NCBI GenBank assembly: GCA_018830645.1
Contig: JAHJSA010000027.1
Location: 1 to 46,469, forward strand
DNA: 46,469 bases
Source: Actinomycetota bacterium
Lineage (GTDB): Bacteria > Actinomycetota > Thermoleophilia > RBG-16-64-13
Direction of reading: 5' to 3'
A program made the position numbers and the translations under genes. This document shows, piece by piece, positions 15,732-30,996 of this stretch. Position 1 is the first letter of the stretch. Each line of letters opens with the position of its first letter. Under the pieces are notes generated by a model. That model searched no databases. It was not told where the DNA came from and saw nothing but the letters and a program-made list of their open reading frames with translations.

Positions 15732-16514
15732 CTACGCCCCGCGCCTGAACGCCTCCGCCAGCTCGGCCGGCAGTCCGGCGGCAAGGACGCCGCGGGCCGT
15801 CTCTTCCACGTCGTACGCCACCCTCTTCACTTCCACCCCGGGCGGCCGTCCCTCCTCGAGGCGGAGCACCGTGTACACGGCACGCACGTCCCCGTCCTTG
15901 GGCCGGCCCGCGGAACCCACGTTCACGAACAGCACGCCGTCGTACTCCCGGTGCCAGGGCGTGTGAGTGTGGCCAAAGAGCAGGACGTCGGCGTCGGCCT
16001 GGGCGGCCAACCTCCGGTAGGTGCGCTCGTCACGGTCCGAGTGCAGATACTCGTTGATGCGCCGTGGGCTCCCGTGGAACAAGTGGAGACGGAACGCCGC
16101 CGCCGCCGCGCGTAGCTCCACACGCAGCTCTCGAGGAAGGCCGCGCAGCCAGGTCTTGTGCTCCGGAGTCACGGTGGCGGCGGTGAAGGCGTAGGAGGCG
16201 TCGCCGATACGGCGGGCTGCCGCGTCGGCGTAGTAGCAGCCGCAGTCGCCGCGATCGAAGGCGATGCCGTCGTCGTAGTTGCCGAGGATGCTCGTCACAT
16301 CGGCGGCGCGGATGGCGTCGATCACACCGTTCGGATCGGGGCCGTAGCCCACGAGATCGCCGAGGCAGAAGACCCGCTCGATCCCCCGAGAGGCCAGATC
16401 GGACAGCACGGTCCGAAGGGCGGCTGCGTTGCCATGTACGTCGGAGAAGAAGGCGAGCTCGGTCAGGGGCTGCGGCCGGTCACGGGCGCTCCGGCTGCGA
16501 GACGACCCGATCAC
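15732..16514 (-). CDS. Calcineurin-like metallophosphoesterase
   Basis: The 260-residue protein contains the five metallophosphoesterase motifs: FFSDVHGN, GDLVGYGPDPN, GNYDD, LFHGSP and FGHTHTPW. These ligate two divalent metals in the YfcE/MJ0936-like phosphodiesterase group. The GTG at 16514 was chosen because GCGGAGG lies nine bases before it. Later starts nearer to LTELAFFSDVHG are possible. It is 43 bases after the CopZ-like gene on the same strand and could be the last gene of the arsenic operon. The substrate (cyclic nucleotide, phosphoprotein or a phosphodiester) is unknown. Confidence 0.87.
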   Translation of the reverse strand: MIGSSRSRSARDRPQPLTELAFFSDVHGNAAALRTVLSDLASRGIERVFCLGDLVGYGPDPNGVIDAIRAADVTSILGNYDDGIAFDRGDCGCYYADAAARRIGDASYAFTAATVTPEHKTWLRGLPRELRVELRAAAAAFRLHLFHGSPRRINEYLHSDRDERTYRRLAAQADADVLLFGHTHTPWHREYDGVLFVNVGSAGRPKDGDVRAVYTVLRLEEGRPPGVEVKRVAYDVEETARGVLAAGLPAELAEAFRRGA

Positions 16515-16557
16515 CTTGCAGTGCCTCCGCGGCGACCCCGAGGACCTGGGCGGTGCA

Positions 16558-17037
16558 TCAGCCGCCGCCAGGGTTGAGCACCTCGCAGGCACACATGCCC
16601 GCTTTGACTTCCGCGGCGATGGCCGACGGTATCTCGTTCCGACCGCTGCGGGCGTCGGCGGCGATGTCGCCGGCCGTGTGACCGAAGCAATAGCAGACGA
16701 GCCGCTCTGCTCCACGGGCGTGGGGGCGAGCGCGTTCCTTGATGTCGACCGCATGGTAGACATTCGGCCTTTGGTGGGCGTCGGACGCGGTCGCGGAGAC
16801 GTCCGCGGGGCCGACTGCCACGTCTGCCGCGGCAGCCGCGACCGCGGTGGCGGCCCGGAAGTAGTACACGTCGCACTCGACCTCCGAGCAATAGAGCTAC
16901 CCCTCCCCGGCGGCGGCCCGCGCCTGCGGATACTCGAGCAGGTGCTTGACCGTCTTCAAGCCCACTGGACGCCCCGGGGCTCCGCACTCCGGGCAACCCG
17001 AACCCTGCCCGCGCGTGTTGCTCAACCCGGCGATCAT
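16558..17037 (-). pseudogene. CopZ-like Fe-S/zinc copper-chaperone family gene with in-frame amber codon
   Basis: Reading from the ATG at 17037 gives 46 residues with a zinc-knuckle motif GCPECGAPGRPVGL (Cys15, Cys18), then TAG at 16897-16899. The same frame then continues without break: LYCSEVECDVYYF, an Ala-rich stretch, VCYCFGHTAGDIAADARSG and VKAGMCACEVLNPGGG, stopping at 16558. Both sides match the archaeal-type CopZ N-terminal region, a 2Fe-2S plus Zn domain with a CYCFG...GxCACE ending. The gene is therefore split only by one codon. Family members lie in copper and arsenic operons, which fits the acr3 gene just upstream. Point mutation, sequencing error or readthrough could explain the amber. 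Confidence 0.72.
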
Positions 17038-17068: not shown

Positions 17069-18130
17069 TCACGTTGGCCTCTCAGTCTCGACGACCGCAG
17101 GACCGCCCCACCACCGTCGCTGCAACCAGAGCGCCACGTTCACCAGGCCGATCAACACCGGCACCTCCACGAGCGGTCCGATCACCGCGGTGAACGCCTG
17201 AGCGGACGCGAGACCGAACACGGCAATGGCAACTGCGATGGCCAGCTCGAAGTTGTTCGAGGCAGCCGTGAACGACAGTGTGACGCTTTTCTCGTAGTCC
17301 GCTCCCATGCGCTTGCTCATCCAGAAGCTCACGAAGAACATGATCACGAAGTAGAGTAGGAGGGGGACGGCGATACGCACCACGTCGAACGGCAACTCGA
17401 CGATGACTTCACCCTTCAGAGAGAACATCACGAGGATGGTGAAGAGCAGCGCGATCAAGGTCAACGGGCTGATGCGGGGAATGAACGACTGGTGATACCA
17501 CGTCTTGTCCTTGATGCGGATAAGGGTGAACCGGGTAAGAATGCCGGCCAAGAACGGTATGCCCAGGTAGATGAATACGCTCTTGGCGATCTGGCCGATG
17601 GTCACATCGACCACGGCGCCCGCCAAACCCAGCCACCCGGGCAGCACGGTGATGAACACCCACGCATACACCGAGAAGAAGAGTACCTGGAACACCGAGT
17701 TGAAGGCCACCAGCCCTGCGCAGTATTCGCAGTCGCCTTTCGCGAGGTCGTTCCACACGATCACCATGGCGATGCAGCGGGCCAGACCGATCAAGATGAG
17801 CCCCTGCATGTACTCCGGCTTGTCCGAGAGGAAGACGACGGCCAGCAGGAACATCAAGACGGGTCCCACCACCCAGTTCTGCACGAGCGACAGTCCCAGC
17901 ACCCGCCTGTTGCGGAACACCTCGCCGAGCTCCTCGTAGCGCACCTTGGCAAGGGGCGGATACATCATGACGATGAGACCCACCGCGATGGGCACCGACG
18001 TCGTGCCCCAGCTCGCCCGGGTGATGACATCCGAGATCGACGGCCACAACCAGCCGACACCCACCCCGACCGCCATGGCCAGGAAGATCCACAACGTCAA
18101 GTAGCGGTCGAGGAACTTCAGACGGTGCAC
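17069..18130 (-). CDS. acr3: ACR3-type arsenite efflux permease
   Basis: The 353-residue, ten-helix protein has ACR3 hallmarks: [36 protein letters not shown] with the conserved Cys used for arsenite transport, [11 protein letters not shown], and [23 protein letters not shown]3 exports arsenite (and some antimonite) using the proton-motive force. The GTG start at 18130 has AAAGGAG five bases ahead. Sixteen bases separate it from the upstream permease gene, and the whole ars block reads in one direction. Confidence 0.94.
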
Positions 18131-18146: not shown

Positions 18147-19277
18147 TCACGACACCACCAGCCGACCGATGTCCAGAACGTTGAACAGATAGCCCACGAT
18201 CAAGATGCCGGAGGCCACCACACCGGCGAAGACCGCCAGCAGACGGGGCCGCAGGACCTTGCGAAGGATCACGAACTCCGGCAACGAAAGGGCGATCACC
18301 GCCATCATGAAGGCCAGGGCCGTCCCCAGGGCCGCTCCCTTGCCGAGCAACGCCTCCACCACCGGGATCATCCCGGCGGCGTTCGCGTACATCGGCACAC
18401 CAAGAAGCACGGCCAGCGGCACCGACCACCACGCTCCTCGTCCCATGAACGAAGCCAGGAAGCCCTCGGGGACGTAGCCGTGGATCAACGCGCCCACCGC
18501 GATCCCTCCGAGCAGGTACGGCCACACCTTGCCGACGACCTCCCTGACGGCGGTCCGGCCGGCGCCTACCCGTTCCCGCCAACTCGGCGCCTGCAACTGG
18601 GCGTCACCCACCGTGACCGCGTACACCCAGGGCTCCACGTGGCGCTCCAGGCCCAGCCGACCCAGGACCCAGCCGGCGCCGATGGCGATGGCGAGGCCGG
18701 TCGCCAGGTAGAGCAGCGCGACCCGCCATCCGAACAATCCCCACAGCAGCACCACGGCCACCTCGTTCACCAGCGGCGCCGAGATGAGGAAGGAGAAGGT
18801 CACCCCAAGCGGCACCCCAGCCGTGACAAACCCTATGAACAGCGGCACAGCCGAACAGGAGCAGAAGGGTGTGACGATGCCCAGCCCGCCCGCGAGTACG
18901 TTCCCTACGGCTTCCCGCCGACCGGCGAGCATGGCCCTCGTGCGCTCGGGGGTGAAGAACGTGCGCACGATGCTTACTGCGAACACCACGAGTACGAGGA
19001 GCATGAACACCTTGGGAGCGTCGTACAGGAAGAACTGCACGGCGGACCCCAGAGCACTCCCGGGATCGAGGCTCAGGGCCGTGAACGAGAGCCAACGCGA
19101 CGCCGGATCGAGCAGACGGTAGAGGAGCGCCCACAGGGCGAGACCGACGAGTAGCCCGCCGCCATACCGGGCGATGGTCGCGCCCGATCCTCGGATCCGC
19201 CCACCGTCGTCACCGCCGGAGGCACCCGCGAGCCGGAGGATCTCCTCTCTCGGCGTGGCGGCCGCAAGATCGGACAT
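18147..19277 (-). CDS. DUF318/ArsP-type permease
   Basis: The 376-residue membrane protein carries [20 protein letters not shown], the CSCS cysteine motif of the DUF318 permease family. This includes ArsP, an exporter of trivalent organoarsenicals. A second copy of the fold follows with [20 protein letters not shown]. The N-terminus has an unusual soluble extension of about 35 residues before the first helix. The ATG at 19277 overlaps the preceding TGA (TGATG), so it is translationally coupled to the thioredoxin-like gene. That pair (small thioredoxin plus DUF318 permease) is common in ars clusters. Methylated arsenic is the likely cargo but this is inferred. Confidence 0.88.
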
Positions 19278-19522
19278 CAGCCGGCGGCCTCCCCTACCCA
19301 CGCGGCGATCTGCGCGGCGTCCGGCACCTTGCCCGTGGATTTGACCTCGCCGTCGATGACCAGCGCAGGGGTCATCATGACCCCGTGGGCGAGGATCTCG
19401 TCGATGTCCGCCACCTTGACCACCAGGCCCGGGTCCAGGCCCGACTGCTCGACAGCCGCACGGGTCGTCTCGTAGAGCTGCTCGCACTTGGCGCACCCCG
19501 TGCCCAACACCTTGATCTCCAT
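19277..19522 (-). CDS. Small thioredoxin-like redox protein (MTH895 type)
   Basis: The 81-residue protein EIKVLGTGCAKCEQLYETTR...VVKVADIDEILAHGVMMTPALVIDGEVKSTGKVP is a minimal thioredoxin fold with the active-site CAKC and the cis-Pro in MMTPALV. Proteins of this size sit next to DUF318 permeases and ArsR regulators and are thought to reduce or relay metals or arsenic to the permease. The ATG at 19522 follows an AGAGGCGG site. Gap to arsR is 46 bases. Confidence 0.9.
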   Translation of the reverse strand: MEIKVLGTGCAKCEQLYETTRAAVEQSGLDPGLVVKVADIDEILAHGVMMTPALVIDGEVKSTGKVPDAAQIAAWVGEAAG

Positions 19523-19568: not shown

Positions 19569-19928
19569 TCACGGGGCGCACGTCCCGAGCGCCTGCTTCT
19601 CTCTGGATTCGTCCACCGGAGCCAGGCGCTGAACGGCCCGCCCCATCCGCTCTTCGCCGAGGATGAAGGGCAAGGCCCGGAGCAACTCAGCCTGCTCGGC
19701 GGGGAGGTCGGCGGCGATACGATAGTGCACCCACACGCCATCGCGACGATCGGACACCAGGCCGGCGTTCAGGAGATAGCGCAGGTGGCGTGAGGCTTTC
19801 GACTGCGTGATGCCGAGAGCCTCCTCGAATCGGCAGACGCAGAGCTCATCCCGCTGGACCAGGAGCGCCAGGATCTCCAGCCGCGTCTCGTCTGCGAGAG
19901 CCTTGAACAGGTCGGCCACTTCGCGCAC
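19569..19928 (-). CDS. arsR: ArsR-family metalloid-responsive repressor
   Basis: The 119-residue winged-helix protein opens VADLFKALADETRLEILALL and has ELCVCRFEEALGITQSKASRHLRYL, with the Cys30-Val-Cys32 pair of the As(III) sensor site. A further Cys lies in the C-terminal GTCAP. The protein represses the operon and leaves DNA when arsenite binds the cysteines. The GTG start at 19928 is in frame with the family N-terminus. The ATG seven bases upstream is out of frame. A palindromic operator lies about 25 bases upstream. Confidence 0.93.
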   Translation of the reverse strand: MREVADLFKALADETRLEILALLVQRDELCVCRFEEALGITQSKASRHLRYLLNAGLVSDRRDGVWVHYRIAADLPAEQAELLRALPFILGEERMGRAVQRLAPVDESREKQALGTCAP

Positions 19929-26233: not shown

Positions 26234-27151
26234 ATGGAATTGACGCAACTCAGATACTTCACGGCTGTCGCCGACACGAAGAACTTCACGGAAGCAGCCG
26301 CGCGCCTTCATGTGTCGCAGCCGGCCCTCAGCTACCAGATCAAGCGGCTCGAGAACGAACTGGGCGCCCGCCTCTTCGACCGCACCAGCCGCAAGGTCTC
26401 GCTCACCGTCGATGGTCACACCTTCCTTCCACTGGCACAGATGGTGCTCTTCAAGGTGGAGGAGGCATCCAGCGTGATGGAGGACCGGCTCGGGGTGATG
26501 ACCGGCAGTGTGCGCCTCGGGTGCATCCCCAGCGCCGCCGCCTACATCGTGCCCTCGGTCCTCGCGTCGTTCAACAGGAACTTCCCCGGCGTGACGGTCT
26601 CGCTCCTCGAAAGCGGCGCGGCCGCATTGGAGCGCGGCGTGCGAGACGGCTCGGCCGATCTGGCCATCATCGCCGATCCCAACTCGCCCGAGAACCTCGA
26701 TGTCACTCCTTTGCTCACCGAAGACCTGCTCTTGGCCGTTCCCGCCCACCACAGGTTGGCTTCGCGAGACTCGGTATCGCTCACGGAACTCGCGGACGAG
26801 CCGTTCATCATGCTCGGAGGGGCGTTCACCCTCGGGACCCATGTGACGGAGGCCTGCCGGAGGGCGGGCTTCGAGCCGAGAGTCGCCTACGAGACCGGCG
26901 GTCTCGACTCGGTGAAGAGCTTCGTGCGGCACGATCTTGGGATCTCGGTGCTGCCGAGGATGGCCTTGCGGCCCACCGACGACGACACGCTCGTGCTCGT
27001 GCCGTTCACGGAGCCGCTCACCCGCGACCTCAACCTCATCCGCAACAGGGACCGCTATGCCTCCGTAGCCACGCGCGCGCTGATGGTTCACATACGTACG
27101 TCTGCCCTCTCGAACCAGAGCCCCGCCACCAGGGCGCTCATGAGGGAGTAA
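26234..27151 (+). CDS. LysR-family transcriptional regulator
   Basis: The 305-residue protein has the LysR winged helix at residues 1-60 (LTQLRYFTAVADTKNFTEAA then QPALSYQIKRLENELGARLF). A periplasmic-binding-like effector domain follows (SVRLGCIPSAAAYIVPSVLA...TGGLDSVKSFVRHDLGISVLP). The pattern is like the CynR/GltC group; no effector can be assigned. ATG at 26234 with a GGGGAG site. It is divergent from the unknown-propeller-BKACE operon and is the natural candidate to control it. Confidence 0.92.
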   Translation: MELTQLRYFTAVADTKNFTEAAARLHVSQPALSYQIKRLENELGARLFDRTSRKVSLTVDGHTFLPLAQMVLFKVEEASSVMEDRLGVMTGSVRLGCIPSAAAYIVPSVLASFNRNFPGVTVSLLESGAAALERGVRDGSADLAIIADPNSPENLDVTPLLTEDLLLAVPAHHRLASRDSVSLTELADEPFIMLGGAFTLGTHVTEACRRAGFEPRVAYETGGLDSVKSFVRHDLGISVLPRMALRPTDDDTLVLVPFTEPLTRDLNLIRNRDRYASVATRALMVHIRTSALSNQSPATRALMRE

Positions 27152-27244: not shown

Positions 27245-29152
27245 ATGTATCTGAAGCACCTGTACGTCGAAGGATTCAAGAGTTTTCCGGAGTATTCCGG
27301 GCTTGAGATGGCCCCCGGAGTATGCGTGATCGTGGGGCCCAACGGTAGCGGCAAGAGTAACCTCACCGATGCGGTAGCCTGGGTACTCGGAGAGGACGAT
27401 CTCTCTTCACTTCGCCTTCGCGACACGGCCGACCTCGTCTTCGCAGGCACCGACGAACTCCTTCCCATGAGCGTAGGAGTGGTCAGCGCGGTCCTCGACC
27501 CCAGACCTATACGCACCCGGGCGCCGGACGGGCTATCCATGGACGCCTGCAAGCACGGCCACCCGGCCAAGCACTCGCGCGAACTGCCCGAGGGCATGCT
27601 CACCATCACCCGCCGACTGCACGCGGACGGCGCCAAGGCATTCGTTCTGAACGGCGTCGAGGTCACCCGTGCAGAGGTTCGCGCCGCTCTCGCCGAGGCC
27701 GGTGTGGCATCTCCCCCCGTCGCCGTGATCCGACAGGGAGAGCTCGAGCGCTTCCTCGTGATCGACGCGAGCACTCGGAGGAGGCTGATCGAAGAGGCTG
27801 CCGGCGTGCCCGATCTCGGGGCACGACGGGACAGAGTCGTCGAAGAGACCGCCGCCCTGCGGTTGCGACACGAGCACCTGCTAGGCGAGCGGGAGGAGGT
27901 CACGGAGCACGTGGCCCAACTTGAGCAGGCTGTTCGGACCCTCGAGCAGGCCCGGTCGCTCGAAGAGCGCGTCGCGCACCTCCGAGCCGGCGCCGTGCTC
28001 TTGGCGCTCGAGACCCGGGACCGCACCGGCCCATCTGCGCCGGACGCGGTGTCTCTACTCGAAGCCCTCGACCTGCCCACACCCACCGATGCGTCGGCGC
28101 ACCGCGACTGGACCAGCGTGCGTACCGAACTCGATGAGCTCGTCGAATCACTGCGCGCGGTGCGTCCCACCAACACCGGGGCGCCCGAGGAGCTGAAACA
28201 GGCGATCGCCCGCGTCCGGAAGCTCGATGGGCAGATACGAGCCGCGGAGGAAGCACTCCGCTCGCTCGCTACGGAGGCGGCTGCTCTGGCGGGACGGATG
28301 GCCTCGACGTTCGCCGAGGTCCACGCCCGCATCGAGAGCCGCTTCCGCGACTACTACGAACTGCTGGCCCCAGGAGGCGAAGCCTCTCTCCCGTTCGAGC
28401 GGCACGGTGACGGCGCTGCCGGCGCCGGCTCGGGCGGCGGCTCGGGCGGCGGCCATGGTGCGGAGGGCGGCGCTGGCTCGGGCGTCGATAGTGCCGGCGT
28501 CGAGGTCATGGTCCGTCCGCCGGGCAAGGTGCTGGACCGCGTGAGCTCGCTGTCGGGCGGAGAGCGTTCCCTGGCCGCCCTCTCGCTGGCGTTGGCCGTC
28601 TTCCAGGAGCATGCGGCTCCCCTTTTCGTGCTCGACGAGGTGGAGCCCGCCCTCGACGACACCAACATCCGTCGCCTCCAGAAGGTGCTCGACTCGGTGG
28701 CAGAGACCCGTCAACTCCTCGTGGTATCCCACCAGCAGCGCGCCAAGGAAGCCGGGGACGCGGTATTCGGCATCGAGCGGAACCTCGATGGAGCCAGCCA
28801 GGTCAAGTTCCGCTTCGAGCCCGCTACACGCCGTCTCGACGTCTTCCGGCGCACCTGGGCCTCCGACGACCTGCGGCGCTCTTCGGGCGATCATTCCCTA
28901 TCGAACGCACCAGGGCGGGCCACGGAAGCGCTACTCCCGAGTCGCGCCGCCTCGCCCGGCGGCTCGTCGAATCATGGCGGGCTCACGGAGTTGCGGGGCC
29001 CGCGGAGCCGGGTCACCGGCCTCAGACGCCGCCCCGACGGCCCGTGGGAGGGCGTGTGGGAGTCGCTGGGCAACCCGAACAGCACCCGGCCGCCGGAGGA
29101 GTCTGAGGGCGATGGCGAAGACTCGGCCGCGGCAGGGAAGACCTGCTGCTGA
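27245..29152 (+). CDS. Hinge-less SMC-family ATPase (mini-SMC)
   Basis: The 635-residue protein has true SMC head signatures. Residues 1-39 read YLKHLYVEGFKSFPEY...GPNGSGKSN (Walker A 31-38), followed by DAVAWVLGEDDLSSLR, VIRQGELERFL (Q-loop) and RRRLIEEAAGV. After about 200 residues of coiled coil the C-terminal head follows: FAEVHARIESRFRDYYELL then LSGGERSLAALSLALA (signature at about 436), FVLDEVEPALDD (Walker B, Asp464-Glu465) and VVSHQ. A canonical SMC has about 1,150-1,200 residues with a hinge of about 150 residues between arms; here no hinge-like sequence fits. A Gly/Ser-rich insert lies near residues 394-420, and a disordered tail of about 110 residues ends in Cys-Cys. It is preceded by GGAGTAGGGAG. 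Confidence 0.85.
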   Translation: MYLKHLYVEGFKSFPEYSGLEMAPGVCVIVGPNGSGKSNLTDAVAWVLGEDDLSSLRLRDTADLVFAGTDELLPMSVGVVSAVLDPRPIRTRAPDGLSMDACKHGHPAKHSRELPEGMLTITRRLHADGAKAFVLNGVEVTRAEVRAALAEAGVASPPVAVIRQGELERFLVIDASTRRRLIEEAAGVPDLGARRDRVVEETAALRLRHEHLLGEREEVTEHVAQLEQAVRTLEQARSLEERVAHLRAGAVLLALETRDRTGPSAPDAVSLLEALDLPTPTDASAHRDWTSVRTELDELVESLRAVRPTNTGAPEELKQAIARVRKLDGQIRAAEEALRSLATEAAALAGRMASTFAEVHARIESRFRDYYELLAPGGEASLPFERHGDGAAGAGSGGGSGGGHGAEGGAGSGVDSAGVEVMVRPPGKVLDRVSSLSGGERSLAALSLALAVFQEHAAPLFVLDEVEPALDDTNIRRLQKVLDSVAETRQLLVVSHQQRAKEAGDAVFGIERNLDGASQVKFRFEPATRRLDVFRRTWASDDLRRSSGDHSLSNAPGRATEALLPSRAASPGGSSNHGGLTELRGPRSRVTGLRRRPDGPWEGVWESLGNPNSTRPPEESEGDGEDSAAAGKTCC

Positions 29153-29301: not shown

Positions 29302-30909
29302 CTACTCCAGCTCGACCGCCCGAGCCTCGGAGAAGCCGTCCAGAGCGAGGATCTCCTCGAGTACCGCCTGCGGGATCGGATCGTCCAGGGCAACGCCCAT
29401 GATGGCGGCGCCTTCGGTCTTCTTGCGCCCCACGTTCATGAACGCGATGTTGATGCCACGCGAGCCGAGCACCGTGCCGACACGCCCGATCATTCCCGGC
29501 ACGTCTTCGTAGCGGAAGAAGGCCATGTGCTTCGACGGCTCGATGTCGATGTCGTGGCCGTACACCTGCACCAGTCGCGGCCGGTGCTTCGGCCCGAACG
29601 TGGTTCCGCCGGCTGAGAACTCGCCCTTCGGGCCCTTGGCCTTCAAGGTGATGAGGTTGGTGAAGTCGCGCGAGCGACGATCCTTCACCTCCAAGATCTT
29701 GAGGCCCCGCTCTTCGGCGATAGACGGCGCGTTGACGTAATTCACCACGTCCTCCACGCGACCTTCGAGCAGCGCCTTGGTCAGGGCGACGGTGAGCAGG
29801 CGGGTGTCCTGCTCGGCGATCTGACCCTCGTACTGCACCGTGAACTCCTCCACGGGCCCGTCGGCGAGAGCCATGATCAGTTTGCCGACCGTCTCGGCGA
29901 GATGCAGGAACGGCCCCACGGCTTCCATGTCTTCAGCCGAGACCGACGGGATGTTCACAGCGTTCGACACGAACTGCCCAAGAAGCCCGGCGGCCACCTG
30001 TTCGGCGATCATGGTGCCGGCCTTGTCCTGAGCCTCCTCGGTGGAGGCGCCCAGGTGCGGCGTGGCGACCACGTTGTCGAAGGCGAGGAGCGGGAAGTCG
30101 GCCGGCGGCGGCTCCTGCGAGTAGACGTCGAGGCCGGCCGAAGCTACCTTGCCCGACTGTAGCGCCCGCACAAGCGAGTCTTCATCGACGATGCCGCCGC
30201 GCGCCGCGTTCACGATGCGTACGCCGTCTTTCATCTTGGCGAACGCCTCGTCGTTGACGATGCCCAAGGTCTCGGGCGTTTTCGGCAGATGCACCGTGAT
30301 GAAGTCGGCCTTCGCGTACACGGCGTCCAGATCGACGGCCTGCTCGAGGCCGTTCTCACGGAAGCGGTCGCTCGACACGTAAGGGTCGTAGGCGATCACT
30401 TCCATCCGCAGACCCTTGGCCCGCTGTGCCACGATCATGCCGATGCGACCGAGGCCGATGAGCCCCAGGGTCTTGCCCGTAAGCTCCACACCACCGAACT
30501 TCGAGCGCTCCCACTTCCCCGCCTTCAGGGACGCGTGAGCCTGCGGGATCTGACGCGCCTGCGCCATCATGAGAGCGACGGCGTGCTCAGCCGCGGCCAT
30601 CGCGTTCGACTCCGGCGCGTTGGCCACGACGATGCCCTTCTTCGTGGCTGCCTTCACATCGATGTTGTCCACACCCGAACCGGCCCGGCCGATGATACGC
30701 AGCCTCGTGGAGTTCTCGAGGATGTCGGCCGTGACCTTGGTGGCCGACCGAACGATCAGCGCGTCGTAGTCGTTGATACGCTCCTTCAACTCCGCGTCGG
30801 TCATCTCGGTGTTCACATCGACATCGAACTGCTCGCGCAGCAACTCGATGCCCGCAGCCGAGATCTTCTCCTTGACAAGTACGCGGGCTTTGCCACTCTC
30901 TGTAGCCAT
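29302..30909 (-). CDS. serA: D-3-phosphoglycerate dehydrogenase
   Basis: The 535-residue protein is a long-form SerA. It has GLGRIGMIVAQRAKGLRMEV (NAD-binding), NAARGGIVDEDSLVRALQSG, ATPHLGASTEEAQDKAG with the catalytic His, then the ASB insertion domain and a C-terminal ACT domain (FFRYEDVPGMIGRVGTVLGS). It oxidises 3-phosphoglycerate in serine synthesis; the ACT domain normally binds serine for feedback control. The ATG at 30909 was chosen over the one at 30927 because the latter overlaps the GGGAGGGAG ribosome binding site. It is the last gene of the ilv block, a less usual position where leu genes are often found. Confidence 0.95.
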   Translation of the reverse strand: MATESGKARVLVKEKISAAGIELLREQFDVDVNTEMTDAELKERINDYDALIVRSATKVTADILENSTRLRIIGRAGSGVDNIDVKAATKKGIVVANAPESNAMAAAEHAVALMMAQARQIPQAHASLKAGKWERSKFGGVELTGKTLGLIGLGRIGMIVAQRAKGLRMEVIAYDPYVSSDRFRENGLEQAVDLDAVYAKADFITVHLPKTPETLGIVNDEAFAKMKDGVRIVNAARGGIVDEDSLVRALQSGKVASAGLDVYSQEPPPADFPLLAFDNVVATPHLGASTEEAQDKAGTMIAEQVAAGLLGQFVSNAVNIPSVSAEDMEAVGPFLHLAETVGKLIMALADGPVEEFTVQYEGQIAEQDTRLLTVALTKALLEGRVEDVVNYVNAPSIAEERGLKILEVKDRRSRDFTNLITLKAKGPKGEFSAGGTTFGPKHRPRLVQVYGHDIDIEPSKHMAFFRYEDVPGMIGRVGTVLGSRGINIAFMNVGRKKTEGAAIMGVALDDPIPQAVLEEILALDGFSEARAVELE

Positions 30910-30996
30910 GTCTTGACTCCCTCCCATAACCCTCGCCGATCGGGCGATCGAAACGAGAACAGCCGGATCTCAGGCACCCCTGGAGGCTAAGCATAC

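Follow-up and report, generated by a model that had tools for sequence, protein, structure and literature searches.

The window, i.e. the whole stretch of 46,469 nt that was analysed, harbours a gene for an SMC-head protein without a hinge, to which we refer as mini-SMC. The gene, its parts and its two direct neighbours are located as follows:

26234..27151, + strand: LysR-family regulator, directly upstream on the same strand with a gap of 93 bp; conserved neighbour of the single form
27245..29152, + strand: mini-SMC gene, 635 aa, reading frame ending CC, then the stop codon TGA
27335..27358, + strand: Walker A, GPNGSGKS, residues 31-38; core glycines, K37 and S38 invariant in eight mini-SMCs
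27500..27595, + strand: head-surface insertion, residues 86-117, with CKHGHxxKH (C102, H104, H106, H110), placed by alignment
27725..27742, + strand: Q-loop, VIRQGE, residues 161-166; R163, Q164 and G165 invariant
27815..28015, + strand: N-terminal coil strand, residues 191-257; predicted helix (AlphaFold2, pLDDT mostly 70-97)
28016..28180, + strand: tip, residues 258-312, with a conserved LLEALGLP-type motif; L275 and L277 invariant in eight mini-SMCs
28181..28366, + strand: C-terminal coil strand, residues 313-374, homologous to the head-proximal coil of ordinary SMC
28403..28495, + strand: GS/G-rich insert, residues 387-417, variable
28550..28564, + strand: ABC signature, LSGGE, residues 436-440; L436 to G439 invariant
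28622..28660, + strand: Walker B/D-loop, LFVLDEVEPALDD, residues 460-472; D464, E465 and P468 invariant in mini-SMCs
28865..29149, + strand: low-confidence tail, residues 541-635, with a DGPWEGVWE motif, an acidic linker and a C-terminal GKTCC
29302..30927, - strand: serA (phosphoglycerate dehydrogenase, named from sequence), convergent neighbour

With a Walker A half and a signature/Walker B half separated by a coil, the protein has the layout that defines the SMC superfamily. Both SMC head halves described in the initial annotation were recovered in profile searches, i.e. Pfam SMC_N (PF02463) matched at 1.1e-45 (156.2 bits against a cut-off of 40), split over residues 2-516, and the top NCBIfam model was TIGR02168 (SMC_prok_B), which matched the heads only, with model positions 1-236 corresponding to residues 2-257. 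The TIGR02168 score of 300.5 bits lies below the cut-off of 567, so that the score of a full-length canonical prokaryotic SMC (>567 bits) is not reached. Smc heads also predominate among the solved-structure matches. The protein has retained Walker A, Q-loop, signature, Walker B/D-loop and switch histidine, which vary little across the eight homologues, and the ATPase therefore looks intact, as judged from its motifs. Within the Walker B/D-loop the mini-SMC reads DEVEPALDD, the corresponding stretch in the ordinary SMCs of the family being DEVEAALDD. Identity to the orthologues amounts to 81 % (G001), 52 % (G005) and 46 % (G012).

The Pfam SMC_hinge model (PF06470) alone cannot decide whether a hinge is present, because it gave no match anywhere in the genome of the window (G000), the hinge of its own full-length SMC included. 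The full-length SMC of the lineage (L011:7943-11566) has a hinge too divergent for this model. The model was discarded as the sole hinge test, and a custom profile made from 12 full-length SMCs was used instead, with held-out ordinary SMCs as controls. In these the profile found the hinge at E 1e-12 to 1e-38, one archaeal SMC included; it failed on a divergent Legionella SMC (E 0.11) and on the unusually short SMC of G021 (none found). All eight mini-SMCs scored below 0 bits or gave no match, and the head profiles of the same alignment did match them. The dimerizing hinge reported as missing in the initial annotation is thus indeed absent, and the hinge detectable by profile that would have spoken against this claim did not turn up in any mini-SMC.

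Alignments to the full-length SMC of the same genome define what was lost. Residues 2-257 align to its first 237 residues, and residues 292-521 correspond, unbroken, to its residues 969-1196 (hhalign, probability 100 %, E 8.4e-59); around 730 residues of arms and hinge are therefore replaced by a short tip, i.e. ~55 residues on a coil of ~65 residues per strand. AlphaFold2 predicts, with confidence for this part, an antiparallel coil (191-257 and 313-374) joined through the 55-residue tip, and the canonical arrangement of a hinge between long arms is thus lacking both by the custom profile and in the model. Both AlphaFold2 models were built from alignments of three sequences, which is why the head was poorly modelled (mean pLDDT 47 and 50).

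Shortened arms also occur among other SMCs. The only SMC found in G021 (L050:1248-3611, G021:C76), of 787 aa and located at rnc-smc-ftsY, has short arms and a hinge undetected by the custom profile, yet it groups with ordinary SMCs in the tree; its hinge may either have been lost independently of the mini-SMCs or have diverged. The SMCs of G035 (L051:7897-10410, 837 aa, flanked by rnc and ftsY) and G040 (L052:576-3056, 826 aa, adjoining rnc), both from the same class, keep the hinge on arms of about half the usual length.

The genome of the window also encodes the second, full-length SMC for which the initial annotation proposed to search (1207 aa, 743 bits with TIGR02168), beside rnc and ftsY as identified by sequence, and a separate genuine recN elsewhere. 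The same annotation asked whether hinge-less heads form a clade, and in the tree the mini-SMCs do form a single one apart from all full SMCs (support 100/100), the exact place of which is unsure because of long branches. A recent origin from the family's own smc was not supported, the mini-SMC clade lying outside the SMC clade of the family. Mini-SMCs are under purifying selection, with dN/dS (w) of ~0.21 for G000 versus G001 and of 0.18-0.23 for the paired genes described below, i.e. around 0.2. They were found in six of the 18 genomes of the order, whereas none was found beyond one family in 399 genomes of the class and 396 of the phylum (E 1e-55); a second query, the G014 'a' protein, gave the same distribution. 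A plasmid search yielded no full-length match, and viral contigs yielded pattern matches but no relatives of mini-SMC.

Mini-SMCs occur in a single and in a paired form. The single form lies between the LysR regulator and serA in G000, G001, G005 and G012. In G010 and G014 (G010:C13, G014:C2) this site is empty, with both genes almost adjacent, and the site thus shows a clean presence/absence polymorphism across genera. Instead, a pair of neighbouring mini-SMC genes, a and b, closes an ArsR-ArsP_1-Acr3-metallophosphoesterase operon of overlapping or abutting genes in both genomes; the stop of a (TGTTGTTGA) shares nucleotides with the start of b, i.e. the two are translationally coupled. An orthologous ars operon, without the pair, is found in G001 and in the window:

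15732..16763, - strand: metallophosphoesterase of the ars operon; the G010 and G014 homologue is directly followed by the mini-SMC pair
17069..18130, - strand: Acr3 arsenite efflux transporter (TIGR00832, 457 bits against a cut-off of 283)
18147..19496, - strand: ArsP_1/SaoE-like permease (PF03773, 6.3e-70; SaoE model 6.3e-37, under its cut-off)
19569..19928, - strand: ArsR/SmtB-family regulator of the ars operon (NF033788, 2.6e-28)

Co-directional, overlapping or abutting placement with ars genes is seen for the a-b pair in G010 and G014, whereas the single gene is 7.7 kb away from the operon in the window and ~9 kb away in G001. Two further genomes combine both forms: in G005 the single gene coexists with a pair whose reading frames are broken and which follows ArsP-thioredoxin-DsbD/CcdA, and in G012 with a heavily decayed remnant of the pair, located after a metallophosphoesterase paralogue and an MFS gene. 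Open reading frames of the pair are therefore confined to the two genomes lacking the single gene, and in all genomes with the single gene the pair is missing, a remnant or frame-broken. This pattern suggests a takeover of its role by the single gene, although G005 is possibly affected by assembly errors. In the G005 assembly (L046, L047) the full smc and the tail of the single mini-SMC are frame-broken as well as the paired genes; the frameshifts of its pair may therefore be assembly errors, and its coding sequences need caution.

The metallophosphoesterase recurs beside acr3 in G000, G001, G010, G012 and G014 and may be an unrecognized ars component. All six mini-SMC genomes contain acr3, compared to five of the 12 other genomes of the order, a contrast that is suggestive but drawn from phylogenetically non-independent genomes. 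Among the 18 genomes of the order, ArsA (PF02374) occurs in G005 only; in G000 there was no PF02374 match at E 1e-10, and none among the Pfam matches of mini-SMC. New here is the translationally coupled mini-SMC pair at the end of an ars operon in two genomes; SMC proteins in such operons were not encountered in a limited literature search.

The two forms differ in their cysteines. At the position of the head-surface insertion ordinary SMCs have ~14 residues; the insertion contains CKHGHxxKH in the single form, is Cys-rich (CDCD..GCCCKPS) in 'a' and is absent from 'b'. Since C102 is missing in G012, the insertion is not a strictly conserved Cys site. The tails can barely be aligned apart from their Cys-Cys end, which is present in every single and 'a' form with an intact end, leaving out the broken G005 and G012 pair copies, the ends of which cannot be judged, and which the 'b' forms lack; in the G005 single gene it is reached after a frame shift. 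Twelve loci together contain 511 ORFs of ≥150 aa, and of these only the mini-SMCs terminate in CC. The window protein has cysteines at positions 27, 102, 634 and 635 and none in the tip (258-312). While the Cys-Cys end pointed out in the initial annotation is thus conserved in single and 'a' forms, the GS-rich insert, present as described, varies among orthologues, i.e. it is different in the relative with 81 % identity (G001) and absent in those of G005 and G012; it is probably only a loop and looks unimportant.

The strongest functional clue, which lay beyond the reach of the initial annotation, is the placement of the paired relatives in arsenic operons, combined with the conserved Cys-Cys at the C-terminus. 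Since the closest paired relatives lie inside arsenic-resistance operons, an SMC head may have been recruited to the handling of toxic metalloids. By analogy to ArsA, the best explanation, which we hold with somewhat less than even confidence, would be an SMC-derived, hinge-less ABC ATPase of a new subfamily that responds to thiophilic metal(loid)s. As(III), acting through cysteines, stimulates the ATPase ArsA, and paired single-domain ArsA proteins, which Alkaliphilus encodes alongside Acr3, increase resistance jointly with this transporter; CcdA and thioredoxin have also been proposed as ars-operon genes (PMC2963123). In SaoC, a C-terminal Cys-Cys was suggested to bind metals, and the SAO system, to which the SaoE permease family also belongs, has a reported link to metals and metalloids (PMC13188914).

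Mechanistically, two heads would sandwich two ATPs, i.e. those of a and b in the paired form and those of a homodimer where only the single gene is encoded. The Cys-Cys of the tail, with or without the head insertion, may capture As(III) or another thiophilic metal(loid), which would then control head engagement and ATP hydrolysis, whereupon the ATPase could act on the metalloid-handling machinery, i.e. Acr3/ArsP efflux or its regulation. The LysR-linked single gene of the window would have arisen by relocation and have displaced the pair. It is tempting to speculate, albeit with considerable doubt, that an SMC head stripped of hinge and outer arms was turned into an ATPase with an ArsA-like function, heterodimeric at first and later encoded by a single gene, for the sensing or transfer of As(III) via the Cys-Cys of its tail and a metal-binding head insertion. 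Against a metalloid role stands the location of the window gene outside the ars operon, in an immediate LysR/serA setting that is uninformative on metals, as well as the single genes of G005 and G012, which are not near ars genes (the G012 contig being short). Moreover, the ars associations are not independent, as they come from only four genera of shared ancestry, and DNA is, to our knowledge, what all other well-studied SMC heads act on.

The main rival to a metalloid ATPase is a RecN/RecF-like DNA protein, i.e. an ATP-gated DNA clamp or repair mediator with SMC-type heads on a short coil and without a ring, in which case the ars linkage would reflect repair or regulation under metalloid stress, or chance. 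Similar length and architecture (head, short arms, no hinge) and head motifs nearest to SMC, a DNA-binding family, argue for this reading, but we consider it rather unlikely, given that the genome has its genuine recN elsewhere, that the RecN model gives 36 bits where 408 are needed and that there are no DNA-repair neighbours; the conserved Cys-Cys end and the translationally coupled place in the ars operon are also left unexplained. The DNA-repair or defence ATPase considered in the initial annotation is not supported as stated, in that no positive evidence for it was obtained.

Alternatively, the Cys-Cys of two protomers could be joined by a shared metal or by disulfides, with the ring closing via the tails, like a Rad50 zinc hook at the opposite end. 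Such a metal- or redox-closed clamp is consistent with the flexible tails of all single and 'a' forms terminating in Cys-Cys and with the coil tip of the window protein being free of cysteines. Nevertheless it is improbable, because in the paired form only 'a' carries the Cys-Cys, so that an a-b ring could not close via the tails, and it does not predict the ars linkage.

A role as head-only partner or regulator of the full-length SMC, through mixed head pairs or competition for ScpA, was also put forward in the initial annotation. The coexistence of a full-length SMC in the genome and the retention of the head-proximal coil are compatible with it. However, the heads are only ~32-36 % identical to the SMC of the same genome and form a separate, deeply diverged clade, two thirds of the order lack a mini-SMC, and both DEVEPALDD and the tail features are peculiar to mini-SMC. 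Nor is there linkage to smc or scp genes, in agreement with the earlier remark that ScpA and ScpB are not nearby, none being seen among the annotated neighbours. In the form proposed, this regulator found no positive evidence, and we regard it as a poor candidate.

Finally, a degraded smc copy or assembly artefact is extremely improbable and, despite the broken copies in some relatives (the G012 pair remnant, the G005 frameshifts), is refuted by a conserved clade under purifying selection with intact ORFs across independent assemblies, which together with its presence in a third of the order also disposes of the deletion derivative of a normal-length homologue that the initial annotation had allowed for.

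SMC proteins are thought to need both hinge and arms for function. Shortened Smc variants ('mini-Smc') were non-functional in B. subtilis (PMC5526789). A natural, conserved hinge-less SMC shows possible uses of the bare SMC ATPase core, and the mini-SMC offers a compact system for studies of head engagement. If the arsenic link is true, we would know of no earlier example of an SMC-derived protein in metalloid resistance, and the task of ArsA would have been solved a second time by an unrelated protein that evolved from the chromosome-condensation machinery.

Compared with prokaryotic SMC (TIGR02168), the condensin subunit of Smc-ScpAB, the mini-SMC shares homologous head halves, their motifs, the order of the parts and the head-proximal C-terminal coil, but it lacks the hinge, has arms of ~65 instead of ~320 residues per strand, a new tip, a Cys-Cys tail and a Cys/His insertion, and is found neither at rnc-smc-ftsY nor near a kleisin. 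RecN resembles it in length (~560-630 aa), SMC-superfamily head, short coil and lack of an SMC hinge, whereas its model TIGR00634 gives 36.4 bits against a cut-off of 408, tip and tail differ, and recN is present separately in the genome. Rad50/SbcC and the archaeal ASRP family (ClsN/Sph) likewise carry SMC-superfamily heads on coils without an SMC hinge. Rad50 and ASRP have a zinc hook at the coil apex (PMC9389158); the tip of mini-SMC is devoid of cysteines and hence of a CxxC zinc hook, and its scores are far under the Rad50/SbcC cut-offs and, for ASRP (NF045487), 54.4 bits against a cut-off of 300. The distinction from RecN and SbcC/Rad50 drawn in the initial annotation therefore holds. 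The likeness to ArsA, a cytosolic ATPase (pair) encoded with Acr3 for which cysteine ligands are proposed, would be one of working alone, as mini-SMC has an ABC/SMC head without a PF02374 match, i.e. belongs to a different, non-homologous ATPase family. With the SAO system it shares the C-terminal Cys-Cys (SaoC) and a permease family (SaoE) that also occurs in mini-SMC-linked operons, but SaoC is not an SMC and the ars-operon permease scores under the SaoE cut-off. Mini-SMC thus fails the tested defining features of canonical SMC, RecN, Rad50/SbcC, ASRP and ArsA, but is a member of the SMC superfamily.
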